Positions 15,001 through 62,714 of a DNA stretch of 64,000 nucleotides are shown here, piece by piece (within the stretch, counting starts at the first letter, position 1; each line of letters opens with the position of its first letter). The position numbers were made by a program, and so were the translations under genes. The notes under the pieces were generated by a model. It was not told where the DNA came from, did no database searches, and saw nothing but the letters and a program-made list of their open reading frames with translations. The stretch spans positions 15,381,001-15,445,000 of the forward strand of contig OX387204.1 in NCBI GenBank assembly GCA_947561715.1, read 5' to 3'. The stretch comes from Ascidia mentula. Its lineage: Eukaryota; Chordata; Ascidiacea; Phlebobranchia; Ascidiidae.

Positions 15001-17702
15001 AAAGTTTTGTGTAATTCAATTATTTCTTGCAGGGTGGTCAGCTGTTGTTAGCCCAAACAATCACCCAGTATCCAATTTCGAGTTTGAAGTTATTGTTGGC
15101 GCAGATGGTAAACGTAATACACTGCAAGGTACGGAGTGCATACATTATGAATTAGCTGTTGGGTATTCCGCCCTTTTTGTGTTTTTGAACAATATGATGT
15201 AACCATGGATAGGTGCCATGACATGACACAGTCCTTGTGTTTTTGTGCTTTTTACAACTTTGTTTACAAAAGTCTGGAGACAATGGTTAATCTTGTTTTA
15301 CAATGTAATTTTATACAAGACCTTTGAACTTTCGACCATGAAAATTTGACATTCGTTTGTAGGATTTAAGCGCAAGGAGTTTCGGGGCAAGTTGGCCATC
15401 GGTTTGACCGTAAACTTCAAAAACCGCCACACTACAGCTGAAGCCAAAGTCCAAGAGATCAGTGGTGTTGCATACATCTTCAACCAGGAGTTTTTTAAGG
15501 TGACAATATACATTGCATGTTGTGTAAAATGCAAAACTGCTTGCCAACAGTGTGTACAGAAGGGGTATATTTGTGACTAAATCTGTTCTTTATTTTCTAA
15601 AAATCAACCCGCTTGCGCTGATAATGTCACATTGGCATTTTAAAGTTTATGACACGCTGTTTTATTAATTGCTATTCAGGATGAACTGCCTTTAACTGTT
15701 GCTATCCGTGCGTTGGCTTTAATGGGCTTGTGCAATTATGCAATTAATAAAAAATCATATTTTTAGCAAATACTTTTTGACATTTAATCTCTGTACAAAT
15801 TAACAAGATCTGTTTGCACAAAATTAACATTATAACCAAACAATAATGCAGTGTATACCAGTGGGCATAAATTGTCGGAGAAAAAAGTTTCTGAAAAAGT
15901 TCTGAACAAACATTATGTGTTTTTGTTTACAGGAATTGTGCAGAACCACTAACATTGATCTCGAGAACATCGTTTACTACAAGGGAGATACACATTATTT
16001 TGTGATGACAGCCAAAAAGCACAGTCTTATAAGCAAAGGTGTCCTCAGGAAGGTAGGCAACGTGACCTTAATAATATTTTGTCTTTTGCATTCAAGTAGC
16101 CTAATATATTTTCTTTTATTCAAGGATTATGAGGACACAGAAAGGTTGCTTTGTTATGCAAATGTTGACCAAGAAGCTTTAATGATCTACGCTCGTGAGG
16201 CAGCCGACTTTTCAACCAATCACAAACTCCCAAATTTGGAGTTTGCTATTAACCAATATGGACAACCTGACATTGCTCTCTTCGACTTCACATGCATGTT
16301 AGTAAACATTTTATAGAAATATTTTACAAGTACAAGCAATTCAATGTAGTACTTTTTAGCAAGAAAAATGTTTTTGTCGATCTATTTCAGTCATTACTTT
16401 TTACTATTGAGTTAATGTGAATTAGGAGGAGTGTTTTGTAATTCAACTTTTGTATGAATATAATCCTCTATTTTGCAAATTTTTGACAGGTATGCCGCTG
16501 AAAATGCTGCCCTGTTTCGTGAGACCAAAGACCGAAAATTATTGTCGTGTCTTGTTGGGGACAGCTTGCTAGAGGTTGGTTGTCCACATTCACTTAAGTA
16601 ATTTTAGTTTCACCTTTAACAATTCGTGTTTTTTCTCAGCCGTTTTGGCCAATGGGAACAGGCTGTGCTCGAGGATTTCTGGCCGCCTTTGACCTAGTTT
16701 GGATGGTCAGAAATCTCTGCCTCAAGAAGGAGGCAATGAACAACAACCAGATTGGTAAATTGCAATAAAAATATCAAGGTGACATTAGTGTTAAGTCACA
16801 TACCTAACTAGTTATTATAATAAAGCTTTAAACAAGTCAAAACAGGCTAGTTTTTTTTCCATGCCAGGCTGAGGCAACTCACTGGAAAGCCCAGGGTTTT
16901 GAGTTCGCATCTCAAAAGCACATAAGCCCTCACTTCTGCTGCCTTTTTATACATTTAGGCTAATTGTGGTGCTTTGGAGATGCCTGTCATTTTATATGAG
17001 ATAGGCAATGCAGAAAGCTAAATTAATTTAAAATAATTTTGTAAACAAAGAATGTTTTTGCAGACCAGGTTGGCAACTTGGCAGAACTGGAAGTTTTGGC
17101 CGAGCGGGAATCTATTTATCGACTTCTCCATCACACGACACCACAAAATACAGGCAAAAACTGGGCCAACTATACTATAGGTGAGCAATGGACGTTGTCA
17201 GTAAACTTGAAATCACTAAAAAGTAAAAGGTTTGCCGACATGCTACAATTTTGTTTTTAATTTCCCAACCAAAGATAAGTATCAGATATTAACAATATTT
17301 TTTTATTGTTGTTTTCTGTTTTACAATGCATTTATAAATTCAAATAAATAATGTATATAGTATAATTAAGTTCTCAAAGCAGTTATAAATTCAACTTTTT
17401 GAAATCCTAATTAAAGTTTCAGCCATAAAGTCCCACCTAAAAAAGAAATGACCCAATAAGGTATAAAACAATCCTGCCCCGATGAAAAATTTTATTTTCA
17501 TGTGCAGACCCTTTCACTCGATACACCAACTTGAACATGAAGAAGGTGTCGGTGAAGCAAGTTCGATCCTTGTACATCTCCGACAAAGATCAGATGGATG
17601 TTGTAGAAGAGGAAGAAAAAGTCTTCCAGGAGCCGATGGATGTTGATACGGAACCGAAAGCAGTCAAACACCAACATCTTAACCCTGCTTTAACGAGAAA
17701 AG
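6027..17702 (+). CDS. MICAL: MICAL exons 1-12: FAD monooxygenase domain
   Basis: Exons: 6027-6118, 6356-6614, 14009-14158, 14295-14490, 15033-15128, 15363-15499, 15933-16052, 16125-16297, 16490-16574, 16640-16754, 17064-17180, 17508-17702. They encode residues 1-578. The dinucleotide-binding motif GAGPCG (122-127) opens exon 3, followed by [18 protein letters not shown]. Exon 4 carries [18 protein letters not shown]; exon 5 [12 protein letters not shown]; exon 7 the [16 protein letters not shown] stretch; exons 9-10 the second FAD motif [14 protein letters not shown] (431-444). Exon 11 has [11 protein letters not shown]. All are near-diagnostic for MICAL enzymes and every key flavin-binding motif is intact, so the enzyme looks active. 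Confidence 0.93.
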
Positions 17703-20700
17703 GTGTGTTTTATGTTGTAGTGAAGGTTTGATGATGACTTGGGTCAAGTATTGTTGTGTAATGTCATCTTGCAAGAATTTTTGAATGAATTAAGCAGAAA
17801 TTACTTTGCATAAATAATTTTTTTAATTATTGTTTTATAAATTTAAAATTTTTTTAATCGTAATGACTCCAATTATCCCACACCCGTTCAACAATAATCA
17901 TATTTTATATGCAATTACATTTGCCTAATTTCTAGTATTTGGGATCTTTTCAAAGTTTGAGTCACTGCAAAATACTTGTTACAATCATTCAAGAACGCAT
18001 TTAACAGCATTAGAGAACTGTTGCTGTGTTTCTATAGACAACAGCAAGCATTGCGAAAATATAGCCATGGTGTAATAATTGTGGTGTAACCAAAGGTTGA
18101 CAGACTATTTACATTTGATTAATGATATTTACCTGTCACAAACTTTACGACAAAGCATTTTGCAATTATTTATCATTTAACATTTCCATTACTTCTTTCT
18201 TGCTACAGTTATTCTGTTTTGTGTGCCATCAATTTATATTCATCATGTTGATTTACACTTTGGTTCAAGAGCATTTAGCATGTACCTATTGTTTGGATAC
18301 AGGTTATAAATAATGATTTAATTTTGCTGAATATTGAAGTATTCAAATTTTTTTAACCTTTTCAATGCTCAAAAAAATTTCAAGATCTTTGATAAAAAAA
18401 GCATACAAACCACCAAACAATGAAAATAAAAACATTGGTTTTTGCACTCACGTACCACCAAGTTTTCAATAGCAACAAATAACTATAACTCCATATTCAT
18501 GTCATTTTACTAGTTTCCATTGTTCGATCAAACAAGCTACAGAACTGGTGCGGACGGATTACGCAAGGTTATGAGGCAGTTCACATTAAAGACATGTCTT
18601 CCTCTTGGAGAAGTGGGCTTGCATTGTGCGCGATTATCCACCAGTTCCGACCAGACCTCATTAAGTGGGAGGAATTAAACCCAATTGACATTGAACAAAA
18701 CAATCAACTGGTATGTGGACAGTGGTTTTGTGTAATGTTCCAATACAACTTGTTTTTAGTGTTTTGGTTCTATTTTTTATGAGCTATACTTTTCTATGAT
18801 AAAATTCTTCATTGTGTCGTGTCAGTCTCTGGTTCTTAACTTCGGTAGTTTCTCATGCACTACTAGTGACAGAATAATTTTTAAAACACTTTTAATAGTA
18901 TGACCATTCCCAAAGTTACTACTTGCTTCCTTAAGTGTGACATATGGTGTGAAGTATGTTCATTATCTATGTTACTTTGAAACATAAAAATAAATTATTT
19001 TTAATGACTTGCAAAACTGCAAAACATTTTCGATTCATATGAGGTTTTTCTACAAGTTCAATCCTTTCCAATGTGTTTCTTCGTTGCAGGCTTTTGATCT
19101 TGCCGAAAAGCACCTCGGAATTTCACCCGTTATGACAGGATTGGAAATGGCAATGTGCAAAGATGTTGATAAACTGATCATGGTCACATATATATCCCAG
19201 GTAAGCTAAGCTGTGCTAAGAATTGCTTATATTATATATACATGTGGAAATAGAATGTGTATTAATGAAGTAACAAGCCTCTGATTGAAGTAAGTAAATT
19301 TATTGGAAAAATCGTTTTCACTTAAATGCTATGAGCAAATCGGAGGCTTGTTACTTTTTTGTGTTGATGCTGATCTACATTGGAAAGTGTTTTTTTGTCA
19401 GTTTTACGAAGTGTTTAAAAATGAAACTCCCGCTGGTTGCCCCATCGATGACAAGGACAGCAAAGTTGAAAACCACGATGTCCCGAAAAGTCCGCTCAGT
19501 TCAACGTCTCCTGTCGGTCTTCTCATCCGGTTTACAAATCACCTAACTAAGAGAAAGTCGTACAATGTGAGAAAACCATTCACTTGAATATATTCTATAA
19601 ATGAAGTTTTAAGAAGTATTTGACTAGTGTTATATAGTAGTGGCAAGTCAAAAATAAGTAGTATATGAGCTTATTCTAAAAATTTTAATTGAAAACTTTT
19701 TTTGGACTTTGAGGAATTGATTGTAGTGTCAGGCTTGCAAATCTCTACCATATTTTCACCCTGGTTCCATTTGTAAAACAAAATGTTCACTCTATCCTTG
19801 CATATCAGGTTAAACAGGATGACCCTGTGAAGAAAAAGAAATATGGAGGCTTCTTCAAAAGAAGGGGAAGCACCTCATCTGAAACTATTCTTGAGCATGA
19901 CGACAAGGAAAACGCAGGGTATGTTGTCTGAAAAATAGACATTGTCAATTCATTGGTAATATTTTTTTTCTAGTATTCTTTGGTTTTAAGGATTAATTTG
20001 TTGTTGAAAAGTTAAATGTTCGTTTGTGGAAGGTGATAGGTTTTATTTATTTATATTTTTTGCAGAAAAACAGAAACTTCTGAAATAAAATCGTTGAAAG
20101 TTGGATCAACTGATGTCCAGCTTCGTCCTAAATCAGCCAAAGATGAGGGGTCAGTGCGCGTCAACCAGCGTGCAAGTAACAGGATCAGTGCTCTATCAAG
20201 TCAACTAATCTCGCAATGGGAACAAAACGCCCCCAACGAAGCTACATCAAGACCTGTTGTTGTTAGTTTTTGCTGTTTTTTTAAAATATGCAGATCTTTC
20301 CATTGGAATAGGCTTTGTTGGTGTTTGAATCACTATTTTCCTATTTTGGAACTGTCCTACATAAACACATAATAACTTTTCGCACCTTTTGTAGATATTT
20401 GACTTTTGAGGACATTGCTAATGTTCTCCTAGAGAGTTTGCTATTAAGAATGTGTCCAAAAATTTATTTCTAAATGCAGCCCCAAAAACTTCTTGCTTGT
20501 CTTGACAGATATCTTAATTGCATTAAAGCTCAAAACACTTTAAAAATGGCTAAAAAACTTGTGTTGTTGTTTAAATATGTTTCTACTACTTTTGACTGGC
20601 AATTGGCAATTTTTCAGAACATCCCAGAACAATCCACCAGCGACCGATGTTGTTTCTGTCAAAAGCGTGTTTATATTGTCGAGAGGATGAGCGCTGAGGG

Positions 20701-23700
20701 ATTGTTTTTCCATCGGCAGTGCTTTGTTTGTACTCACTGTGGAGTGACGCTCCGAAGAGGGAATTATGAATTTCAATCGGAGACAGGTTATGGATGGCCA
20801 ATTTATTCTCAGTGTTACAATATTTCTACATTATCACGTTGAACTTATTATTTTACATTGTAACTTTAAACTTAATATTATTTTTCCTCACAATTTTTTA
20901 GCAATTTGTAATGTTTTGGGTATTTAATTTTTTTAAATGGCTATTCCCGCAATGTATATTGAATGTGTTTTAATGTCTGTTAGGTTTTCATGCATTTCAA
21001 CTGACACAAGTATTATATTTCAGGCAAATTCTACTGCAGAGCTCACTACTTTGCCCATTCTGGCGCTTTCAAAACTGCCCAACAGAAAGAAATTGAAAAT
21101 TCTTCCACGGTTTCTGACAAAGCTGAAGACACACTCACTGCCCTTAACAACCAAGGTAGGTTATTCCAGTCACAACGTAAAATAGGGCTTGTTCAAGCAA
21201 AATCTGTGTCACATTTCTTTAACTTGTTAATCTGTACAAAGTATTTCAATTTTCAAACATTGTTCACAATAATTTTGAGTAATTTTTTCCCTTTTAATTC
21301 ATTCCTATTTGAATTTTTTCTGGTTTGATTGTTTTCACATGTAGCTCCTGCATATATTCACTTTGTAGTTCTCACATTCATCACATTCACTTACTGAATT
21401 GTATTAATTAACTATCACCACTTCTATTCAATACACCACTACGTCACCACTGTAGCACAGATACATGACTCTCTGTAAGTGTTCACCTAAATAGCATGAA
21501 CTAATTGCACTCTATATGGCAATGCGAAGGTATAGGGAAGGCTTTCTTTTGGCGCCTTTTGTCCCTACTGCTTGCCATGCTCACCTTTCTGCTGCACAAG
21601 TTTTGGAATGGCATGCTTTCTGTCTTTCGGGTCGGCTGGAATCGCCTCTGGCCTAAGACGGTGGCACCTATGAGTCCTGCGGTGCCCAAATTGGTAGTGA
21701 ATGGCAAAGGAACTTTGGTTGAAGATGGAAAACCCAAAACTGAGTTCATGACTCGAATAAAAAGTTTAAAACGGAACAGTTATTCAGCTGAAAACATACA
21801 GAAGCTGAAGCCGGCAAGTTTGTCGAAATGGAACTCAACAGAAACTTTGACAAGAATTGACAAACCATCCCAATTTAACAAATTCCAAGCCATAGAAAAG
21901 CCGAGCACTTCCACTGAAAATACACCAAACTCAACAAAAACTAGCGGAAGCCGTATATTGCATTTCGCAAGTTGGATGGCAAATTGTTTATTTCTTAAAT
22001 TATCACAAGCTACAAGGTCACTTCCCTCTTCACCAACGCTGACACAGTTTGCACTGGACTGGGTTTTACTACCTGTTGCTGCAACAGCACTGCTCTATTA
22101 TCATCATACTGTGTTTGTCAGTCCCTTGTGAAACAGTGAAAAAATCTACCTGACATCAATTTATTTACTTACCTGTTTGTGAGTTTTTTAGTTTATAGAA
22201 CATGTAGAATGTAAATATATTCGTGTATGTTTATTTATTTATTTTATCACTGTCATGTAGGATGATTGTGAGTTGACGATGTTCCAAACTCTCAATTTAC
22301 ATTTTGCTTTGTAGAATTTTGCCTAGTGTATCAATTTTCCTACCTTTAACAAACTACTAAATTAAGAGACCATATCTAAAGACCAAAGGAACGTACTTTA
22401 CTCGATACTCCACATTCCAAATGTTATTAAAGTTTATTGTTTCAATATTAGACTTCTTTCAGTTACTATTTTATAAATAACTGCTCTATGAGCAAACCAA
22501 CGCAACAATCCATAGTTCCAAAACTATTGTGAATGTTCCTTTCCACTGTGCTGTGATTGTTACTAAACATAGGTCATTGTTATCAAGTGCAATTATTCAA
22601 CAGATTGTGCCACGTTTATATCAAGTTCCCATTACCTTACTGTGAAGGTTTTTGTTCCATTTTGTTGGGCAATGTGACTCCAAATTTTGTTCATGTACAA
22701 AGTGAATACTGAGCATGCAATGCTTTGTAGAATTGTTAGTTTAACTTTAAAAGTGAAAGAAATATTTTCGTTGTATATCAAGTGTATTGTTTTTTGTTGA
22801 AATTTTTTTTCTTTTTTTATAATTTTACCATCCAGGCATTTAAATAAGCACTCAATGTCACACTAGACCAACAAAACATGTACATGTTGTAATCTGCTAA
22901 CAATATGATCCAGTAACAGGTCGGGTGAACGTTTTTTCAGTATGTAAAGCTCCAATGTGAAACGAGAGTAGAGGGTTCATTGACCTTGAAAACTTGCACC
23001 TGTGTTATCCATTGTGACGTGAAACCCTTGCTATATTATCATCACATAATAGGTTTTGAGATCCAGTGACCAATAACAGTTTCAGTGCCACACCTTTATC
23101 CATTATGTTTCTCTTTTTATTTTCCCTTTGTGCGTCAAGTGCCTTACAATGTAGTAATTTTCAACAGTGTTATATTAGGTAAAGTAGGGTATACTTATTG
23201 ATGTTTATAGAATGTTATTGTTGCAAATTTCCTTCTTGGTTTTTGGTTTGAAATCTTACTGAAGCCTTGTAAATGCTGTAGCAAGTTGTGTTGCTTTTAA
23301 GCTCACAGGGTGAATAAAATAGTGCAAAAAACTACTCTAATTGATTCTGCCAAGGCAGTAGGTTTATGAGGGAATTAACTTAAACGAAGGTGGCGCTGCT
23401 ACATGCTTAAATGACATCAGATTATGTTCTTAACTGTTCAAGGGGGCAACCCCCCTTTAGTGAATGCTTAAATTACCCACAATGCCTTGCTTTGCTCCTC
23501 CACTCCGCTCCCAAGCCCTCCTTTTCACCCCCTTTTTCTCATATGCTTATGACCTCACACAGGCCTTTGGACAGGAAACTGTGATGTCACAACTGTGTGT
23601 AATTGAAAATTGCCTTTTTCTTGTGCTTTCATTTGCTTGAGGGGCTGTGTTGTGATTTGCAAGAAATGTGTGCATTATGGCCCAAAGAAAAATATTATTT

Positions 23701-26700
23701 TGTCCTGCAAATGCTTGCTCCAGAATACATTTAACGTAACTTTAGGTTTTACTCATTTTCAACACAATGACAATATATTATCTTGGCATCATTCACGATA
23801 CAACTCCTGCAAGTTCCAAATTTTCTTTTTTAAGTTCGTCATTAATTTCTTTGCTACCAAAATTTTCTTTTTCCAACTTGCAAACACCCATTCGAGTTTT
23901 GATAAATATACAAAAACTTTCCAGCACTTAAGTCCCATGGCTGCAAATGGAATGACCAAAACCAACAACTATTGTTACTTCAAACCCCTCACAACCATTA
24001 TCGCTTTAAACCCATTTCACACTTTACTGTAGCTCACATTAACATCACCTTTCTCCCTGTTTCCATGAACCTTTTTATCTTCTGTATTTCTCATCACTGT
24101 CATGCTAATGCATTTACCATCAATCACCATTAGCTCTTGCATGCTCATTCGTGCTTAATACAATCTAGTCTATTTGACCTGAATCAGTAGAATTATTTTG
24201 CACAATTTACTGATCAAGGTTGTTGTGCTTTCATATCAACATATAGTTATCCAGAAATGCTTCCGGTTTCCCAATTGCTCGGTGTTTGATTTATGGCAGT
24301 GACTTCTCTAACATTGGTTTTGTATGCATTACATTTAACTTGGGCGCTTGAAAGTATTTACATTGCTTTTTATTCTTGCCATACCACTCTTTACTCGTTA
24401 GTGGTGACACAGTAAATTTATTTACCTTGCATTATAATACTTGGTGGCTTAAGCGATTTTGACTTGTTTGCAGTTTAAATGCACATTTTTGTCACTTTTT
24501 TGTGCATTTTGTTCACCCATGAAGCATGGCAGCTGTAGTGCATGACAGGTTGCTTGATAAGCTAGATGTTAGTTTTTCACCTTGCAACAAGAAATTCTTT
24601 TTTTCAACAGGAGTTAAGCTTCGAAGATCGCTGGAAGCAAAATCTTACAAAACCCCGGAGAGGATTGAACTGGAAAACATCCGTATATCCATGCTTAATG
24701 ACCGCAAGGAACTTACAGAGGAAGCACTGAACAAACACAACCTGAGTAATGCTTCCCAACGTGAAGGATCTCCTCACCTGGGTGACATAGATGAGTTAAT
24801 GAGGTATATATTTTTTGCTGGATTTAAATTTTGAATTTGGAGGTAACTGATCGGCACATCATGGAATTATTTTTGTGGTCACTGAAATATCAGATTCCAT
24901 TTGAATAAGCGACATTGATGATGCCAATAATAAACATATATATATCAAACAATAAAGCAAGACAAGCGACTTGTAATTTTATACTAAAGTTGTTGCAAAA
25001 AAATCTGTTTTCCAGTCTATGTTGGCCATTAGGGTATCAGGAAAGTCTGCAACATAAACTTTCATCATGCTTGGATTGTTAAAATTGAAAAAAAATTACA
25101 GTAATATTTTTTTAATTTGAAGCGTCAGTAAAACTTTTTTAATCATTTTAAAAAACTTATAATACAACAAAACTTGTGAGAATAAAAACTTAACCTTTTA
25201 ATTTTTTCTTTGATGTGAATGTGCAAAAGAGTTAAATTTGAAATGTAGTGATTCTTCTGATGAGGACATTGATTGGGAGGCAGTGCTCAAAGCTGCAAAG
25301 GAACAAGGAGATCATGATACAGGTGATAGTGAGAATGAGGGTGAAGAACATTCCTTCAGGTCCTCATCCAGAGGTAAATTCTTTCTTCTCATTGTGAAAT
25401 TATTTCCAATATAGTTTAACCTAAAATTTGTGCCTCTTAATTGCAAAATGAACATTTAGACACAACTCAGTATTGGGCTTTTGTCACAAATGTCATAAAC
25501 ACATTTTGCTCTGTACTTTCAATAATGTAAAGTAATGCCATAGTCTTTTCCAGTTGCCATAACAACAGCTACTAACCCAGTCTTTGTCACGGTGTTAAAT
25601 TGCTGAAAAACCGATAAATGATAGAATGCAAATAAGTATCAAACAAACAATAAACGTAAATACCAAAGTTTTGTTGGATAAAACGTAGGTTCCAATCGAC
25701 ATGACATTACAACCATGTCATGGCTGCACGATGGCTCGTACCTTCAAATTCCTGTGAACAATGGGTTTGACGATACCAGTACCATGGCTGACATAGCAGA
25801 AGGTATAAATGCACCCACCAGATATGCTACCAAACTAACCCTGGTTTGTCCATTAAACACCCATCCTTAACAACTTAGGCTTCCCAACTTTGCCTTTTGA
25901 TGCCAAACCTTAATTTCCTAGTGTGGGTGTCCAAATATTCTGTCTTTGTGCCACTGATAAGGGTTTCACAAATGTATGAAACTTTTGCATGATCGTTTTC
26001 CACAAAATATTCTAGAAAATGTAGCTGTACAATATCCTACACTCGTTTTCTCTGATGCACTTTTGCTTGGTTTGGTAAAACTTGGTTGGTTTTCACTTAC
26101 TGATGGTTTTGATTTGAAATCAAAACCATCTTCAGTTCAATGAACAGAGGACACTGGTTGTATTTAGGGGATTTGTATTCAATTGCAATTTGTTGCAGAC
26201 AAAATGGACTATAGCAATTACTCAACACTGCGCCGTCCGTTAACCCCAGTCAAAGAAGGTATTTTGGTGGCTGACACCAGAAAAAAGATATCTGCATGCT
26301 TTCTTTTGACAGACAGAAAAACTTCCTTTCAACTTTTTAGGAAAAGCATTATTTTTGTGGGTGAAAAGTTTTTTTTTGCAAATAATTCAATTTCCTTTTG
26401 TTTTCTTTTCGGTGTTTGCATTTTGGTTGGTGAACTTGACTTAACTGAAAGCAGAACAAGAATTGAATCCAAAAAATTGCTACCCTTGCTTCACTAAATC
26501 ACATTTTAGTGGATTTTGTGTGTTGTTGCTTGCTGATATTTTGTCTTTCTTTCGGCCGACAAAAGAATGCACAGGTGTTAACCCAAAATTAAATGGCCGA
26601 TTACGTCTGCAGAAATTTGTGAAGAATTTGTCGGAGGCAGCTGCGACCATAGTCGCGCCCCATCCTTCCACAATGGCAAACGTAACTCTCTGGAAGATTG

Positions 26701-32700: not shown

Positions 32701-35700
32701 GGGATCCAAGTCGCTGTTCCGGATTTCTCCACGCAAAAAGGAGAAATCTCCACGTGTGGACGAAAGAGACGGCCTGGGAACACTGGAGAGAAAATATCCA
32801 GATCAGTCAGGTATAAGACAGCGGCTTTGTGTTATAACCAGTATAAGGGGGTCGGCAAAGTTCTTCGACTACTATAGGGCATTTCTATCATATGTACGCT
32901 ACTGCGAACTAAACAAAGCAAGACGTGACGGAAGACGTGTTTGACTTATAAATGTGCACTTTTATACAAAGAAATACTGTTTACGAGTTGGGGGCAAACC
33001 CATGATGCTTGTTTTACAGACAGATGATAAATTGGGCTTCACAAAGAAATAGGCATAGTAGAAAAGGCAGTCGAGTGTTTGTTTAAAGAAAGATATAACA
33101 ACCTCTCGTAAAATAACCAAACCTTTTTCCTACGAATCAAGGTGAGGTCAATGCGTTTGCCGACAAAGGTTGCAAGCTCTCAGTCGTTTTCACCTTGATT
33201 CAGTCACGGAGGTATACAGAGCAAGCATTCTCCCCCTTGAAACTGCCAACAAGAGGAAAGTCAGAAAGCAGCACTTGGCGGTTACAGAAAGTCAATACAA
33301 ACCTAATAAGCCGTATGCGTGTACGTGTATGAGAGCAAGGGAAAGGCAGTAGTAGTAATCGATATGAGCACGTCGCTATAGTGAGTGTTTACTTAACGCT
33401 TGTTCAGGGTCCAAATCTCGGTATCTCATTCGTTTGCGCAAAAACGTATTGTTGGCCAAGTCTTTAAATCTATATGCTTAGCGAGTAGCAGGTCCAGGGA
33501 AAGGGATTTCGTCGTTGTACAAAAGTTCTGTTGGGGTTGTCTTGCAGCAATTGCTAGGGACAATTTAGCTAACTGTTGCATTGCCCTGTAACGTATGACA
33601 GTAGCTATACGTATGTCGGAAATTGTAGCCGTAGGACTTCAATTTTAGTTGTAGTTTAAAATTGAGCAATAGCAGTCACAAAAGGTATAGCAAAACAGGA
33701 AATCCTTAGTCAGAATATTGATGTCACAAATAGGTAGGCTATAGTGTACGAAACAACCACAGGTACATTAGTTTGGTTGTTTTCCATGCGCAGTATGACG
33801 CATTGCAGCCATGGTAATAGGCCTATATCAGGTGTTTTGCTCCAACGTTATTTGAAAAGGATCTCGCCTTAGTATAATGTTACTAGTTCCGCGTTACCAG
33901 CAAAGATATTTGATTCCTTTAGATTAACCGTCATCAAAGAACAATAGCCAACCGTGTTCTCTTGTCAGTTGTTGAGATTTAGCTGAATGTAAGGACATTG
34001 TGCCCAGACGTAGTTTACATAGAAGCTGTGCTGGTTTACATCAGTTATGACACAATTTCTCTGGGAAAGGCCGGTTTTAGTAGCAGTGTTAAATTAATTT
34101 TGTGCAGTAATTTGTGTACATTCTCTTACAAGGAGGATCCCCGTTTTTCAGTAACGGATCAAGTGTGGATTTATGTAATTTTCACTTCGGCTTTAAATTG
34201 TTATTGAAGATCGTGAGAGGGCAATATTGCGAGGTGAGAGGATTCGATATTTGCCTGAAGTGCCGAGCGCCGGACCTGGATCCAGGCGACTTCGAGGCAG
34301 AGCTGAAACTTTCGACACCGTTGAAGGTAATTTGATTGAATTAACTCTAAATTAGGCCGAATTTAACAACGCGTCTGGGAACTGAAAATATACCTTTGTT
34401 TATGCACTTGTTATTGTTCGAACTTGCTACTTTTCATTTGTAACCTCATATACGCCCTACAAATCTCATTTAAAACAAAAGCAAAGCAAACGTAGCATGG
34501 GTGGAAACTCTTTACACTTTTCGACAGAGCCGCCAAGCAAGTCTTTAAGCAAACGACGAACTACACTTGCTGGATTAACACCCGCTGAAATTGACGCCAA
34601 GATAACCAGGAGAGTACAGATCGCGGCGCGGAGACAAGCTAAGATGGAAGCACAGAAGAGATTGAGAAGAGCTCAGGTAAACAACACATTTGTCCAGATC
34701 AGTGTTTCCGAAACGTTTGTCCGTGGAACTCACACAACGTCAGAATCATCATGTAAACCAGTTTTTTGGTTTCCTTGTGCGTTCGTTGCTCAAATACTAT
34801 ACAAACATATTCACCAATTTTGGCAAAAAAACTAATAGCACGCGGAATTCTTCATATTTTGTTATGGAAAGAGTTTTGGGAAACTTTGGTCTAGATTTTT
34901 GTTTTTTCCGTTAGGACATAAAATTGTTGGCGTGTTGTTACCCTTTCATTGCAGTAAAATGTTGAACGAAAGCTGTTGGACGTTTTTTAATTTAATAAAA
35001 CCTACCTATGTTTAATATATATTTCTGGGCTGCGTTCGCATTTTAAACGAAAACACTTTCCTGGTCCAGGTCATCCAACGTCAGCTGGAGGAAGTTGAAG
35101 TGAAGCAGAAGGAGCTGGAGGAGAGAGGAGTAAAACTGGAGATGATGCTACGGGAAGATGGAGGTTAGAATAAGAATGAATTACTTCGAAACTCTTTAAT
35201 GTAACTGTTAACGATTTTTTGCGCAGTTGAAAAAGACAAGGAAGATTCCACGTGTATGCAAGAATGGTTCCAGTTGGTCCAAGAGAAGAACGCTTTGCTT
35301 AGATACGAAAACGAACTAATGATATAGTGAGTTGGCAAGCAAATGCGAACTATTCTGTTATCGGGTCGTATCAAGTAAATATAGAACATATCGTTGATAG
35401 GCAAAAGACATATGTAAAGGATCGGCAGGGTGTTACTTTTTTAACTCATTAACCTCGCCTCAAAATAGTGTTTTACTGTAATATTCGTTGAGATTTTAGA
35501 ATGTTGTGGTTTATTGTGTTACAGTCAGCGCGAATTACAACTTGAAGATGTTCAAAGTCACCTCCAGCAAGAACTCCGCGAAAGAATGGCAATGGACGGT
35601 GAGACAATTTGTTAAAATGATTACTTTTTGCCAAAATCCAAAATTTTAACGATAATATTTATCATATGAATATTTTGGTTGTGATAACAATTTTGTTTAT

Positions 35701-36308
35701 TTATAGGATAATTATGACTTTATAAAGCAAAAAATTCAATTCATATATTGCGAAATCATCAATATTATGATAAAAAATAAGCAAAAATAGAAAATTTGGA
35801 ATTTAAAGCAGTCAATCAGTATCAGTGGAAAACTACTATAACATAATTGTGGAAGTCTGTTGTCAGATTAGCAAAATCGCTAAAAATTGAACAAATGCGA
35901 TAAAACTGACCGCCTTTGCGTTGCAACAATTACGTTTTAATTTCAAGACACAAGAAAAACATCAATTCAGCTTTCCCAAGAACGTGAGATCCTACAAAAG
36001 ATGTTGGAGGTTGTAGAGCAGAGGGATGAGCTCGTGGGTCTTCTGGAGGAGCAACGACTAAAGTAAGTCCCAAAACCGTAGACTTTCACAACTTATAACG
36101 CCATTCGGTTGGTTTTCCTTGAAACCCCAAACTATTTATTTCGATTCACCTTTAATCGATGCCTCGTTTCCTTAGAGAAAAAGACGAAGCCGTTGACATG
36201 GAAACGCTGATGCTGAGTAAGTTCAACGCCTTCTCAAGCCAGGAGCAGCGCGGCAATTCGTCGTCGGACTCTGTGACGTCATCGCCGCGTTCATTCCCGG
36301 TCACGTGA
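6027..36308 (+). CDS. MICAL: MICAL, F-actin-oxidising flavin monooxygenase (46 coding exons)
   Basis: MICAL proteins use FAD and NADPH to oxidise actin methionines and so disassemble filaments; the C-terminal bMERB domain binds Rab GTPases and autoinhibits the enzyme. All 46 exons here have GT..AG borders and compatible phases. They sum to 6,966 bases, exactly 2,322 codons including the stop, with no internal stop. Domains: FAD monooxygenase (about 1-500), CH (about 587-688), LIM (849-902), low-complexity acidic/Ser/Pro linker (about 940-2060), bMERB (about 2101-2290). The start ATG at 6027 sits in a good context (AGCCATGG); the stop is TGA at 36306-36308. The length is that of the long vertebrate MICAL3 or insect Mical type rather than MICAL1/2. 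Exons 1-2 are split from exon 3 by a 7.4-kb intron. Extra cassette exons cannot be excluded, especially between 32811 and 34209. Confidence 0.93.
7199..7552 (+). other. Unexplained 117-codon ORF with a hydrophobic segment, inside MICAL intron 2
   Basis: An ATG-initiated frame of 117 codons with a basic, Cys-containing first part and a hydrophobic stretch near the C terminus ([19 protein letters not shown], about residues 85-103). I recognise no family. The frame lies in the sense direction just where the CpG-rich part of the intron begins. It may be chance, or a short membrane protein or alternative first exon. Confidence 0.15.
8424..8852 (-). other. Unexplained antisense open frame inside MICAL intron 2
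   Basis: A 142-codon stretch without stops on the minus strand, but beginning at GTG rather than ATG. The first ATG would give about 82 residues. The sequence is basic (a KKK cluster and RRPPKKK) with no recognised motif. It lies in CpG-rich DNA, where stop codons are rarer, so chance is the leading explanation. Confidence 0.12.
13591..13900. repeat. Exact 155-bp tandem duplication
   Basis: Copies 13591-13745 and 13746-13900 appear identical base for base, both starting CTTTATTTTAATCTCAGTGC and ending TTTTCGTGACACTAT. The right end is 108 bp before the acceptor of MICAL exon 3. Identity of an intronic repeat implies a very recent event or an assembly duplication. It creates spurious overlapping ORFs here. 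Confidence 0.9.
16866..16916 (+). repeat. tRNA-like (SINE-type) fragment in MICAL intron 10
   Basis: A box A-like TGAGGCAACTCACTGG is followed about 20 bp later by a box B-like GAGTTCGCATCTC with a self-pairing T-arm shape. A full cloverleaf is not present. The best reading is a decayed tRNA-derived SINE head. Confidence 0.3.
18514..19200 (+). CDS. MICAL: MICAL exons 13-14: calponin-homology domain
   Basis: Exons 18514-18710 and 19090-19200 encode residues 579-681. The CH core is visible as LQNWC, then [41 protein letters not shown] and [11 protein letters not shown]. This single CH domain is typical of MICALs, where it aids coupling to F-actin. The acceptor chosen is TAG at 18511-18513, giving a VRSNKL lead-in like vertebrate MICAL2. 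Confidence 0.92.
19268..19356. repeat. Stem-loop inverted repeat in MICAL intron 14
   Basis: The arms 19268-19286 (AAGTAACAAGCCTCTGATT) and 19338-19356 are reverse complements with one mismatch, around a 51-bp loop. The right arm ends 45 bp before the exon 15 acceptor, so the intron RNA could form a hairpin next to its branch-point region. Confidence 0.7.
19402..21155 (+). CDS. MICAL: MICAL exons 15-19: linker and LIM domain
   Basis: Exons: 19402-19566, 19809-19918, 20066-20261, 20618-20786, 21024-21155. The first three encode a Lys/Ser-rich linker with a basic [13 protein letters not shown] segment. Exons 18-19 encode a LIM zinc-binding domain whose ligands are C849, C852, H870, C873, C876, C879, C899 and H902; the full double zinc finger is preserved. 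Exon 19 ends in phase 1, which lets it splice either to exon 20 (24611) or to the hydrophobic alternative exon near 21530. The end of exon 17 is ambiguous by 3-6 bases because the donor lies in a GTT repeat. Confidence 0.9.
21530..22131 (+). CDS. MICAL: Putative alternative terminal exon of MICAL with membrane-anchor tail
   Basis: A frame open over about 200 codons ends at TGA 22129-22131. An in-frame stop at 21502-21504 means the exon must begin after it. Two AG acceptors (before 21530 and before 21536) both join exon 19 in phase, giving isoforms of 1,138 or 1,136 residues with FAD, CH and LIM domains but no bMERB. The new tail opens with an aromatic/Leu-rich stretch ([18 protein letters not shown]). 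It runs through a Lys/Ser/Thr-rich middle and ends with [14 protein letters not shown] followed by only nine residues, a tail-anchor layout. An AT-rich 3' untranslated stretch follows, with ATTAAA at 22426 and AATAAA at 23313. Both acceptors lack a strong pyrimidine tract, which weakens the case. I recall no described membrane-anchored MICAL. Confidence 0.5.
22132..24610 (+). other. Probable 3' UTR of the alternative exon, then MICAL intron
   Basis: AT-rich and without convincing coding potential. Poly(A) signals at 22426 (ATTAAA) and 23313 (AATAAA) suit the alternative terminal exon. A short perfect hairpin, AGGGGG-CAA-CCCCCT, lies near 23440-23458. The open frames at 23610-24032 (+) and at 24526 upstream of exon 20 have no recognisable motif. 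Confidence 0.4.
23313..23318 (+). terminator. Candidate poly(A) signal for the short MICAL isoform
   Basis: AATAAA about 1.2 kb after the stop of the alternative exon, followed within 25 bp by an A-rich run. An earlier ATTAAA at 22426 is the other candidate. Confidence 0.35.
24611..34326 (+). CDS. MICAL: MICAL exons 20-40: long low-complexity linker
   Basis: Exons: 24611-24803, 25249-25373, 25689-25802, 26199-26258, 26613-27191, 27648-27697, 28052-28189, 28257-28287, 28400-28964, 29200-29450, 29909-30068, 30477-30581, 30809-31032, 31168-31283, 31466-31558, 31632-31719, 31790-31957, 32189-32317, 32556-32626, 32702-32810, 34210-34326. Exon 20 carries [14 protein letters not shown], a motif conserved just after the LIM in MICAL proteins. 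The rest is Ser/Pro/Glu-rich and poorly conserved, as in MICAL3; exon 28 has an Ala run from a GCT repeat at about 28523. Several exons are phase-symmetric (22, 23, 24, 26, 36, 37, 40) and so skippable without a frame change. Exon 27 is a 31-bp micro-exon. Confidence 0.85.
26102..26130. repeat. Perfect 29-bp palindrome in MICAL intron 22
   Basis: GATGGTTTTGATTT, a single G, then AAATCAAAACCATC: two perfect 14-bp arms around one base, 68 bp before exon 23. No coding role. It may be a foldback scar. Confidence 0.85.
32648..32680 (+). repeat. tRNA-like T-arm fragment in MICAL intron 38
   Basis: GTTCGAATCCC with flanking GTGAG/CCCAC arms and a following CCGGTGCGA resembles the 3' end of a tRNA. 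The 75-bp intron that contains it is too short for a whole tRNA plus splice sites, so it is a fragment. Confidence 0.4.
32811..34209 (+). other. MICAL intron 39 (1.4 kb)
   Basis: This intron joins phase-1 exons 39 and 40. The ORFs inside it (for example 33170-33352 and 33400-33591) show no family resemblance and lack coherent splice borders. An undetected phase-symmetric cassette exon is possible. Confidence 0.5.
34528..36308 (+). CDS. MICAL: MICAL exons 41-46: bMERB (Rab-binding) coiled coil and C terminus
   Basis: Exons: 34528-34676, 35070-35163, 35227-35326, 35525-35598, 35948-36062, 36176-36308. They encode residues 2101-2321. Long helical segments with heptads are plain: [20 protein letters not shown], then [39 protein letters not shown], and [16 protein letters not shown]. 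This is the bMERB fold (formerly DUF3585), which binds Rab8/10/13/35-type GTPases and folds back on the monooxygenase. A short Ser-rich tail follows and ends PRSFPVT. Confidence 0.92.
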
Positions 36309-37914: not shown

Positions 37915-51427
<13,513 letters not shown>

Positions 51428-53647
51428 CTGCGTGGAAATGACGTCATTGACAGGTTGGAACTTCTGTGGCGTCATGAGTTCGCTCATCGGCGCAGTTGCA
51501 TTGTTTTTAAGGTTTACAAAAGGAGGTTCAGCGGGGCCAAGTTCAGTGTACTAGTGTTTTGTATGATTTTCAAGCATCAACTTAGTTATAACCTACAGTG
51601 GATTAAGGAACAGAGTTAAGGTGAACCAGAGATCATGCCTAGCATAAACGAACCTTTATGTTAGCTTATTCAGTCACCATACATGTTATGCAACACACGC
51701 ATTCGCAATTAGACACACATAGGTGGGCATTGGTACACAGTGATAAAGACAAAAGATAGATGACATACACTGTATTCCAGGACCAGGGACAGTATATGAA
51801 TTGACAAACAGTAACTTTGGACACCGATAAGGGGCTAAATGAAAAGACCCAACCGGCCAGATTTGGCCCGCGGGACGGAGTTTGCCAATATATCTACTGT
51901 ATTCCAATCATCTCAAACCAGATACAAGACAAAAAAAGTTCGCTCAAAACCCACTTTTTCCACTCACTCAGGGTGACAAGTCCCATTTGACGCACGGCTA
52001 CATTAACGTCAGCCGTCAGCCGACCACTAAACAAGAGTTAGAGTTACGCCTCATTGCATTCACGTCCGTGACGCAGAACACCGCTTTCAAGAAATTAAAA
52101 CGGCCGCGCAGTGACTTGTCATAGCAAAAGTTGCAAGCACTTATGGCACTGCGAGTAGGTTTGAATAATGGGTTGCGAGGTAAACTATGGGAGCAGTGTT
52201 CTGGGAGTAAGTGCCCTAATGGCGAAAAAAATGATTAATTTGGGTAATGTTTGGGGTGAGAGCCAGGTTGACTTGGCAAGAGCGTTAAATCGCGTGGTGA
52301 AAACAAGCGTTCATGGCACTTGAGCGAGGTCGAAACAGCGCCGGTTTTCTTACACTATGAGTTCCGTAACACGTAAGAAACCTCAGACCATCGCGTAACA
52401 TTACAACAATAGCTTCTCAATACACTTCACGTGCGACAAAAAGGAATGTTTCCCATCGCCGCAAGCGGGAAGCGAGATATTTGAAGCGAGGAAAGGTGTC
52501 GACACATGGACGTTTAAGAGAGGAAACGGATGGAATAGCTCACCGATAAAGCACGCGACTCCCGAGGAAACATACTCCCTAATGCGAAATATTTACGGCT
52601 CTGTAACATCACGGAGGACTTCCGAGCTGTTGGATGATATACGGTTGAGTTCAAATTTCGCTGCAATATTCACACTTCAAGAAACCACCCGAACTTGTAA
52701 CAAAACTCCGCGATTCGGCGAAAGATGCAGTGCGAAGTATTGTAGAAAAATATCTCTGATTTCCTTCACCTGCGTCGCCTCTTTTCACACTGAGTTTAGT
52801 GAGCAAAACAACATGCCTGAAAACTTTTCCTATTTCGCGACAAGCCTCGCGTTCCTGCATTCGGCTCTTACATTACGAGATCTTACCTGCGCTAAAACTC
52901 CCAACGAAGCGACGTGTAATTAATCTTAACACGTCGTTCGGCCTCCGCCGCCGCCGAAGCGCAACCGCCGCGGAGGTAACACAATGTTTGTGGCGTTGTT
53001 GCAAGGCACAGCATGCCGCAATCCGTCAACGCAAGCGCCTTAAGCCAATATTTGTGCCACCTCTCTTCGTCCATCAACGTCACAACTCGGGGACGGTCTT
53101 GCTACAGGCGCGTGCAGTCGGGCGTGACCAATCAGTCACGTGATCTTGTAGCGATCTTGTATGGTTTGTATTTTGGGTTTTGGGGATATGTTACCGTCAG
53201 TTTCTATTCGATAAGTTTAACAGCTTACTTCAATCTGAAACACTTTGTTTCACAATTATATCCCTATCTCAATACATTGGTTTCGTCTGTACTAAAACAA
53301 CGTCGAATCGATGGCTAGATTCTGTCATAATTGAGAACCACTGGTATTACACATCCATGACTGGTACATGCTAATAACAGCGATGGCACATTTTTCATTC
53401 TCAGATGAACTGCAGCTTTTTCTACAGTGCAGTCAGACTAAATAACTTCTAGCGAGCTCAAATCAGTATTGCACAAACCTCCATAAATAACCTAATCAGG
53501 CAAATGTTTAAATGAAAGATCGTCTTATACGCAAACCTAACATACTTTCAGTCGTATAACTGGTCCAGCTTAAAACCATAACCAAAACGCAAAACTTTTC
53601 CCAACCAAAATGCGCACGGCAAAAACCACTCGCCGGCATTTACTCAC

Positions 53648-57465: not shown

Positions 57466-60415
57466 TCTTGCGCCATGGCCCGCTGGACAACAGCGCTCTG
57501 ATCCAAAAAAACTTGACCATAAGCCATTGGTTGAGAAACAACACTAGACCAAACACGTGGTTCACCAACACACCAAGTTAAATTAATGCTCCAATAGCGA
57601 GCGATCTGAAACGGCAATACAAGATGGGCAATTAACGGCAAAACACCAAGTAAATGACAGACATCGGTAATAGCGTAAACCAGCGCCAATTTTCACCAAT
57701 GTTTGTAGCTGTACACAGCAAAACCGTCTATGTGGCGCAGACTGTGAGGCACTCGCAAGAAATTCGATTTTGATCGGTCGGTTGATTGGATTTAGCAAGG
57801 CTTAGCGGTTTTTTTTAAACGAATTTAGACTGATTGAGGAAACTAGAGTTGCGGACGTTAAGAACAAGAAACGTCGAAAAGTGACTTTCATCAAGAAGAA
57901 GCTTTTATTTAGACATCGCTGTAATTTGATGCCTTCAACCTTGACTAAAGCAAAAATAATTTTCACGGCAACACAACAAGTTTTTCATTTAATTTCCACC
58001 AGCCTTGTACATTTTCTAACCTGCCCCAGCATCTATCTTCACTACACACATCCTTAAGTCCTCTCTGAGTACTATACTCACATGGGGACTCATCTACTCC
58101 GATCAGTAACAGCATCACCGCCTACGATCTTCTAGGCTATAACTGCAACAGTGTTTCGACATCTAGCGATCCAAGCACATCTGATAAGGTTGTTTTTTCA
58201 AAGACTGCGCTGAAGCGAGCGCCTCTGGGCAGCCATCGTCGTATGTGGGGGCAATTAGTGAGCTTGCCAGCTATGTAGTTAGCCTGGCACTGGAATGCGC
58301 GGTCGGCCGCCTTAACGAGTGTAGCAATAACTTGATATGTAAGCCACCCAGTGCGTTAGGCCAATAAAACAAGGCCAGCCTGTGCACTCATAACGCCGTT
58401 TATGTTTACAGCCTGCACGAGTATGACACACTCTCTTCGCCGTTTCGAAACGCATAATTTCAAACGTTGTGGTGAGAATCCGAACTAGCTTTTAACAAAA
58501 TGCAAACAGTGGAATTCTTCGTTCCTCGGAGCTCGGGTTAAAAGTGTTTCTGAACTTTCCTTGCCCCTGGTGCTCACTTAGGGGACAAGGCACCAAGCTT
58601 ATGTTTATGGTTGTGTCGAAAAGTTCAAGGTGGAATTGGAGTAAAACCTCTTACAAGTGCGTCTTACCTTGGTGGTGCGCCAATCAATACGTTTATGGGA
58701 CCACCTGGCGTAAGGGTACCGCTAAAACATCCAATAACGAGGAGGAATGAAGGACGAGTTTCCCGACAAAATCTTGACAACTTCTCAAAACTACGCTAAA
58801 GGCAACATCAAATCAGACTTACTGCCAAAATGAGAGACACTTCCTATATTCCAACAAACTGCTGAAAAGCCAATTTGAAATAGCAGAGACAATCTTGTCG
58901 GGACTGGAACATTTGATTCTGGCAGTGCTATCGACTCCATTGAAGGTGGGCATTAAGCCATTCCCGGCAACGCCAAAGTTACAATTAGCGAGCGACAACC
59001 AAGAGAAGGTGGCCGCCTGGGCCTCGAGCTTCGCAACTACTTAATTGGACGTTGTTGGGTCGTCCAGGTCGTTTTATCCTCGCTTTGGACCGGGACTCAA
59101 TTACATGGATGGGATGTAGGGTATTTTATGCTCCGGCCTTCCACAAGCGCTTCAGTGATTTGCCGAGGCTACAGCAAATCCCCGATCAACCAAAACAAGT
59201 TCGATTTGTTAAATATTTATGTTGGTGACGGAACACAATTGATACAGGGCGAATTTCTGTTCGCAATTTCAAAAAAGAAAAAAAAGTTATTTGCGAATCG
59301 AATTTTTCAAGAAGCCAAGATTTTGTGCAGATGTGCAGTAATGACCCGTTGCTGTTGTTTGAAGCACACTGAAATGCCACAAACTTTGTATAGCTAACAT
59401 CTGCGTCACGCCACGATGAATATATCCAACTGCATACAATCGGAACATTTTGCGGTGATATGCAAACACAAAACGTCCGATCTTAAGACACAAAATACAC
59501 ACCTTCCTCCACATACCTGGAACAGTTTTACTATCCCACGGTTGTTAAACGCCACAAAATCAGACGAAGGAAACTTATCCCAAAACTAACAAAACGCTAA
59601 CGCCTGTTCAAATACACAACCCCGAAAAAGTGAAAGAGCGTTCATAAACCCATACATCCAGCTCGCATTAGTCGACCACACGCGCCGTAGCAAGGTCAAC
59701 AAGCTAAACCATCTCAACTGCGCTAACACACAGAGTGAAGATGATAAGGGTGTACCAGAATACGTTCCCACGCAAAGCCAAGCAGTGCCTGGGGTCGGTC
59801 GTTGAGGAGTCGCTTGTATGTGGATTGTAAAGCTAGCTATCACCAGCGCGTGAGCCATGGTAAAAAGCAAGTCTTTAAGTTATCGCACCAGGCAAGAATA
59901 TTTGACACTTTTAAACTTATGGGAAAATCAAAACCTTTCAAAACACGACGAATAAGTTGCCAACTGCACCAACACAGTCTACAACAGTATTTGGCGTGGA
60001 CAACCAATGTACACGTTTAAATAGATACCACGATTTAATTCTTTCTCATGATGCAGCATCTCCACAAGACCGAGTATATGGGAGCCATTTGTGTACACCT
60101 CATCACCTGAAAGCTTATACCAAACCACAAGAGAACTGGTTTTAAGGTCAACGGAACAAGCTTTGTGAAAGAATAAACTTTGAGCAAGGTTAATGAAAAA
60201 ACCATCACCGCTTCACCAATGAGTTATTAAAGCGTAAAGCACTATCAGGACGTCATCAAGATTTGATGACGCTGAAATTCGGCCCATAGAAGCCCTGAAG
60301 CCTTAACGCGGCTCAATCGATTCCAATAACGTCATTGAGCCTTGTCGCCGGCACACTCATCCGTTAAGATGGGCTCGATCCAATTAATCAAAGCAGAGAG
60401 GTCATAAATTTTTCA

Positions 60416-62185: not shown

Positions 62186-62714
62186 AGCACCGAAAAATAG
62201 TTTCCATTCACCCCTGCAAAAATTCCATTCATTTTTAAATCGTTCGCAACTATCGATGCTTCCTAAGTTTTTTTTTAGTTGCGACAAAACAAAAACTTCA
62301 ATCATGAGTTGCATTTCCCTGAATTGCCAGCAAGTTCCATGGCTTTTTTGACGATATCAAGGAGCACCAAAAATAGTTTCCATACACCCTCGCAAAAATT
62401 CCATTCATTTTTAAATCGTTCGCAACTATCGATGCTTCCTAAGTTTTTTTTTAGTTGCGACAAAACAAAAACTTCAATCATGAGTTGCATTTCCCTGAAT
62501 TGCCAGCAAGTTCCATGGCTTTTTTGACGATATCAAGGAGCACCAAAAATAGTTTCCATACACCCTCGCAAAAATTCCATTCATTTTTAAATCGTTCGCA
62601 ACTATCGATGCTTCCTAAGTTTTTTTTTAGTTGCGACAAAACAAAAACTTCAATCATGAGTTGCATTTCCCCGAATTGCCAGCAATTTCCATGGCTTTTT
62701 TGACGATATCAAGG
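62186..62714. repeat. Tandem array, three copies of a 176-bp unit
   Basis: The units start AGCACC at about 62186, 62363 and 62539, and each ends TTTTTTGACGATATCAAGG. Copies 2 and 3 are nearly identical; copy 1 differs in a few bases. Each contains CGCAACTATCGATGCTTCC and a T9 run. Because 176 is not a multiple of three, the 62-82 codon ORFs repeated in it cannot form one protein. Confidence 0.92.

Follow-up and report, generated by a model that had tools for sequence, protein, structure and literature searches.

An open frame in an intron of the Ascidia mentula MICAL gene: a candidate alternative terminal exon that would replace the bMERB domain

MICAL enzymes are kept in an off-state by their bMERB domain, which folds back; Rabs or plexins lift this inhibition. 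Intronic polyadenylation can generate isoforms through which a protein changes from soluble to membrane-bound or back. In the available portions of the open-access literature, we found no membrane-anchored MICAL oxidase. For MICAL1, bMERB is described as a C-terminal coiled coil that the CH and LIM domains hold and that covers the oxidase; the full-length protein brings about no faster loss of F-actin, whereas the oxidase alone speeds it (PMC11557892). MICAL2 is described as lacking this domain and as constitutively active (PMC11557892). Many MICAL2 cDNAs are without the bMERB region even though the locus holds it (PMC9982024), and the MICAL2 forms PVa and PVb have other C termini (PMC3645671). 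As far as the available parts of these sources go, vertebrate MICAL2 already provides examples of MICAL isoforms that lack bMERB (PMC9982024, PMC11557892).

The window analysed here, a 64-kb stretch of A. mentula DNA (positions 15381001-15445000 of its contig), carries a MICAL gene with a Rossman_Mical oxidase followed by CH and LIM domains, and bMERB in the long product. The oxidase profile (PF25413) matches at 15906-16313 with an E-value of 3.3e-39. A profile search of the whole genome (195.8 Mb, 79 contigs) placed 3/3 Rossman_Mical matches inside the window and found no second MICAL oxidase gene. The parts of the gene that matter here are as follows, with exons 19 and 20 numbered as in an earlier, sequence-only reading of this DNA.

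15392..16286, + strand: Rossman_Mical exons, oxidase domain, present in both the long and the candidate short product
18489..18779, + strand: most of the CH domain, in an open frame (PF00307, E 1.9e-13), common to both products
20474-20839, + strand: frame with the first exon of the LIM domain (PF00412, E 1.1e-5), which continues into the next exon
21024..21155, + strand: exon 19, second half of LIM, assigned by position and by the reading FYCRAHY
21530..22131, + strand: candidate for an alternative terminal exon, beginning at 21530 or 21536 and with its stop at 22129-22131, 198-200 residues beyond exon 19
24611..24804 (end approximate), + strand: next constitutive exon, exon 20, in the same phase as the candidate exon
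35073-35330 and 35941-36063, + strand: two exon matches to bMERB (PF12130, E 4.0e-14 and 1.1e-6); the first reads through stops, which leaves its exon limits approximate

The domain order of the long product (Rossman_Mical, CH, LIM, bMERB) is that of MICAL1 and MICAL3, whereas the candidate short product would be without the Rab-binding, autoinhibitory domain. The short product would instead resemble the short forms of vertebrate MICAL2 (the 1,124-residue human form, PVa and PVb), which have the oxidase, CH and LIM domains and no bMERB, come from a locus with a bMERB-like region, and have C termini that differ by splicing (PMC9982024, PMC3645671, PMC11557892). In the available portions of those papers, no membrane segment is mentioned for the vertebrate forms. 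Isoforms made by intronic polyadenylation are also comparable, in that an alternative terminal exon within an intron changes the C terminus. There, the switch has been established by RNA data; here the ending is a prediction from DNA.

The sequence-only reading had pointed to a frame of about 200 codons between exons 19 and 20 and to two AG acceptors joining it in phase to exon 19. We confirmed both. The open frame spans 21505-22131 (+ strand; 208 codons stop to stop) in the intron between 21155 and 24611. Exon 19 ends at 21155 in phase 1 (one base over; donor AAG/GTAGGT), and the frame fits this phase at two AGs (21528-29 and 21534-35), giving exon starts at 21530 and 21536. The interval that holds it, 3,587 bases, is the longest among the 13 acceptor-to-acceptor intervals that the gene's 14 reference acceptors define.

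The frame is longer than an intron would usually yield by chance. At least 199 codons were reached in 6/400 introns simulated at order 1 and 0/400 at order 2, and in 0/400 and 1/400 sequences simulated with the frame's own composition; these rates are per intron and the candidate came from the whole window, so that the real surprise is several times smaller. Stop-to-stop frames of at least 199 codons number three within the 64 kb, the candidate included. One of the other two has a PDEase_I match, and the other, of 211 codons, lies in the MICAL gene and gave no Pfam match. Three frames with PDEase_I matches (38685-40468, - strand) belong to a cyclic-nucleotide phosphodiesterase gene that adjoins MICAL on the opposite strand. 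The candidate frame itself is single copy in the genome both as protein and as DNA, as is the surrounding stretch 21300-23700. It matched no Pfam family at E up to 10 and had no significant relative in the PDB (a single chance match, E 3.8). A mobile or viral origin was considered and set aside: the region is single copy, and a scan of IMG/VR with tail peptides returned five pattern matches, none of which was confirmed.

We then scored the frame for coding potential with a three-periodic model built on 48 loci (the 25 of the codon-use set described below and 23/30 7tm_1 loci, L056, L057, L059, L061, L069, L071 and L083 having been left out for internal stops). The proper frame is the best of six, at 0.084 bits per codon and with a margin of 0.153 bits per codon over the other five; in held-out coding chunks the right frame was best in 57/57. 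The candidate outscores 6 of these 57 chunks, and its margin exceeds that of 3. It also scores above 1,087 of 1,088 stop-free pseudo-ORFs drawn from introns of its own gene. Among stop-free controls from 42-64 kb, a stretch that may itself contain exons, 89/1,150 (7.7%) reach the candidate's score; the controls overlap one another and are not independent. A comparison with intron windows (0/203) was set aside, being explained by stops alone.

We also scored codon use. The training set comprised 25 of 39 loci (L015-L053), those with internal stops or belonging to expanded or neighbouring groups having been left out (L024, L026, L030, L033-L039, L041-L044). Synonymous codon use did not separate the classes, with 12.9% of 2,000 intron chunks scoring as high as the frame and 11/47 coding chunks as low. 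Total codon use carried a modest signal (1.3% of intron chunks as high, 3/47 coding chunks as low). GC content by codon position is flat, 0.43/0.45/0.43 in the frame versus 0.49/0.38/0.42 in coding sequence. Elsewhere in the genome, contigs C1, C2 and C70 contain big groups of alike intronless kinase frames of ~300 codons, and contigs C69, C70, C73 and C2 have 7tm_1 matches in two halves within single open frames of ~500 to 1,600 codons.

Overall, the coding signal is moderate. On its three-periodic score, strong against own-intron controls and weaker against those from 42-64 kb, we read the frame as probably, though not certainly, coding. The same data bear on the view that a GC-richer part of the intron merely happens to be open and is never spliced. 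The flat GC profile, the uninformative synonymous codons and the 7.7% of 42-64 kb controls with an equal score all suit this view, as do two frames without assigned identity, 52399-52920 and 58957-59394, that score alike (0.066 and 0.103 bits per codon). It is opposed by the length of the frame and by the single own-intron control in 1,088 that attains the coding score. We consider a chance frame unlikely, yet a contender to be kept in mind, also in view of the splice and poly(A) signals.

The candidate acceptors do not resemble the gene's own. Their scores are -11.4 and -9.9 bits versus -5.0 to 10.8 for the 14 reference acceptors (leave-one-out), worse than 14/14, and among 1,554 other AGs they fall at the 27th and 38th percentile. 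The pyrimidine tract is missing (pyrimidine content before the AG 0.42 and 0.25 versus a mean of 0.65). The base preceding the AG is A or T in the candidates and C (CAG) in 13/14 references. Of 18 junctions inspected, 14 entered this set and 4 were unclear; some of the 14 sites were assigned visually to whichever AG lay closest, usually a CAG, which biases the set towards CAG. Real alternative exons often have weak acceptors; hence a weak acceptor is no refutation. No good phase-compatible AG was found elsewhere in 21505-21700; the next in phase, 21698, scores -8.5. Slightly further on, the best in-phase site is AG 21725 (-2.9), the use of which would skip the first hydrophobic segment. A microexon at 21456-21474 or 21461-21474, spliced onto exon 19, was weighed as well; it either breaks the phase or runs straight into a TGA. 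Three short motifs lie near the ends of the candidate exon.

21500..21504, + strand: CTAAT, branch-point-like (YTNAY), by script count 29 or 35 bases upstream of the candidate exon, depending on its start
22426..22431, + strand: ATTAAA hexamer, at background density
23313..23318, + strand: AATAAA hexamer, at background density and with no GT-rich run after it

The CTAAT is suitably spaced from the acceptors, but it is weak evidence because YTNAY also precedes 9/14 reference acceptors. Poly(A) hexamers downstream of the frame, which the sequence-only reading had listed, are indeed present, but their density (two in ~1.2 kb versus ~1.4 per kb across the gene) is that of the background and so amounts to no poly(A) signal for an alternative end. 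Downstream of the frame we found no poly(A) signal beyond background, and the candidate hexamers have no GT-rich run, unlike the true 3' end of the MICAL gene, where AATAAA is followed by one (36986, 36998). The earlier proposal of a splice from exon 19 into the frame holds as regards phase, which fits at two AGs, but is weakened by the poor acceptors. Poor acceptors and background hexamers are also what a chance frame would offer.

The frame could alternatively belong to a small gene nested within MICAL in the same orientation, with its own start (ATG 21465, spliced, or ATG 21577), encoding a short membrane protein of ~184-203 residues. Such a protein would have a hydrophobic N-terminal helix and then a basic cytosolic tail, and its transcript would start from its own promoter or by spliced-leader trans-splicing. 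Its first exon would be:

21465..21474, + strand: rival start exon ATGACTCTCT, before donor GTAAGT 21475, with a 55- or 61-base intron to the frame

This consensus donor, ten bases past the start of ATG 21465, is the sole donor-like site within 21156-21700 for the patterns tried, and it joins the frame in phase, giving 201 residues with no internal stop when spliced to 21536. The positive charge after the hydrophobic helix, given below, suits an N terminus outside and a C terminus inside better than it suits a cytosolic MICAL enzyme ahead of the helix. Spliced-leader trans-splicing is possible in this animal, given that the genome contains 1,830 exact copies (931 + 899) of ATTCTATTTGAATAAGGT, which we take to be the Ciona spliced leader plus GT; the reversed control has 0. 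Among the places listed, the copies are partly arrayed with a period of 719-720 bases, and one array lies on contig C1 at ~15.24-15.316 Mb. The spliced version of the nested gene nonetheless needs the same poor acceptor as the MICAL ending, unless translation starts at ATG 21577. We found no good trans-splice acceptor just before ATG 21465, where the sites score -10.6 and -6.3 under a model trained on cis acceptors. Moreover, nested genes in the same orientation occur less often than alternative terminal exons do. We regard a nested gene as rather improbable.

The tail that the candidate exon would add to MICAL contains two hydrophobic stretches, scored with hand-entered hydrophobicity and insertion-energy scales.

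21541..21597, + strand: strong hydrophobic segment covering residues 3-21 of the tail (1.80 on the Kyte-Doolittle scale, -0.23 on the insertion-energy proxy)
22039..22095, + strand: borderline hydrophobic segment, tail residues 169-187 of 198 (Kyte-Doolittle 1.59)

The first of these is the better and looks capable of crossing a membrane. Residues 3-21 are equalled by 2/78 other window ORFs of at least 90 codons on the insertion-energy scale and by 12/78 on the Kyte-Doolittle scale. The C-terminal stretch falls just under the usual Kyte-Doolittle cut of 1.6, contains Asp and Pro, and reaches 3.64 at best on the insertion-energy proxy (residues 172-190). Of the two segments claimed earlier, then, the one at the start of the tail stands as good and the C-terminal one as borderline, and a peak of this kind is common in intron pseudo-ORFs: the Kyte-Doolittle peak of the tail is reached by 55% of 544 stop-free ones. 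A Kyte-Doolittle segment of at least 1.6 is present in 21/78 other window frames of at least 90 codons, and plain read-through of the intron past exon 19 gives a 57-residue tail that is likewise hydrophobic, a point in favour of a chance frame. Hydrophobicity alone was therefore rejected as evidence.

The sequence-only reading had further proposed that a tail anchor at the C terminus tethers this MICAL, with actin oxidation at the membrane without Rab control. A tail-anchored protein has a single membrane segment near its C terminus. The candidate tail has two hydrophobic stretches, the second ending 11 residues before the C terminus, which would suit this model; the strong segment, however, lies at the tail's start, with 177 residues still to follow, and the stretch near the C terminus is no more than borderline, hence a strict tail anchor is not supported. 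The values of the C-terminal stretch (1.59 and 3.64 versus 1.80 and -0.23 at residues 3-21), with its Asp and Pro, speak against it, residues 3-21 would be recognised first, and two membrane passes would place the basic loop on the far side. We consider a C-terminal tail anchor unlikely and the full model, with Rab-free actin oxidation at a membrane, very improbable. Net charge after the first helix is +4 (residues 35-60) and +7 (residues 60-140). If the first helix crossed the membrane with the enzyme in the cytosol, this basic stretch would be on the far side, an unfavourable arrangement. It is equally likely that the helix lies within a single leaflet or binds a protein.

We tentatively favour the view that the open frame serves MICAL as an alternative terminal exon, a reading that we put at somewhat short of an even chance and that stays a candidate, unproven. 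What we observe is a single-copy frame of more than chance length, in phase with exon 19 and with a moderate coding signal; its splicing and an end within the intron would follow on this reading, as would release of the oxidase from autoinhibition by loss of bMERB, an effect known for MICAL1 and argued for MICAL2. Splicing from donor 21156 would go to 21536 (or 21530) and bypass 24611, and the transcript would end in the intron. The short product would keep the oxidase, CH and LIM domains, lose bMERB, and gain a basic tail of 198 to 200 residues in which a single strong hydrophobic helix follows the LIM linker immediately; this helix may dip into or cross a membrane or bind a protein. That such a product would end before bMERB (35073-35330, 35941-36063), as had been suggested, is supported by the in-phase, probably coding frame, and from the known biology of MICALs it would be an always-on oxidase.

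An always-on MICAL without bMERB is not new. A fixed place at a membrane would be, and one good helix stands behind it: we hold it doubtful that the locus makes a membrane-embedded, bMERB-less isoform, that is, an always-active oxidase fixed to one membrane and not recruited by Rabs. This possibility overlaps with the alternative-ending reading and includes the tail-anchor model, so that the respective probabilities do not add up. Should the frame be a chance one or belong to a nested gene, the picture of MICAL would be unchanged.

Two further features lie towards the ends of the window. Short-chain dehydrogenase-like frames occupy 297-2330 on the - strand (adh_short, 24.5 bits, below the curated cut-off of 26.6). 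At 62279-62703, a 176-base unit is present in at least two tandem copies, and two frames 176 bases apart encode near-identical protein.
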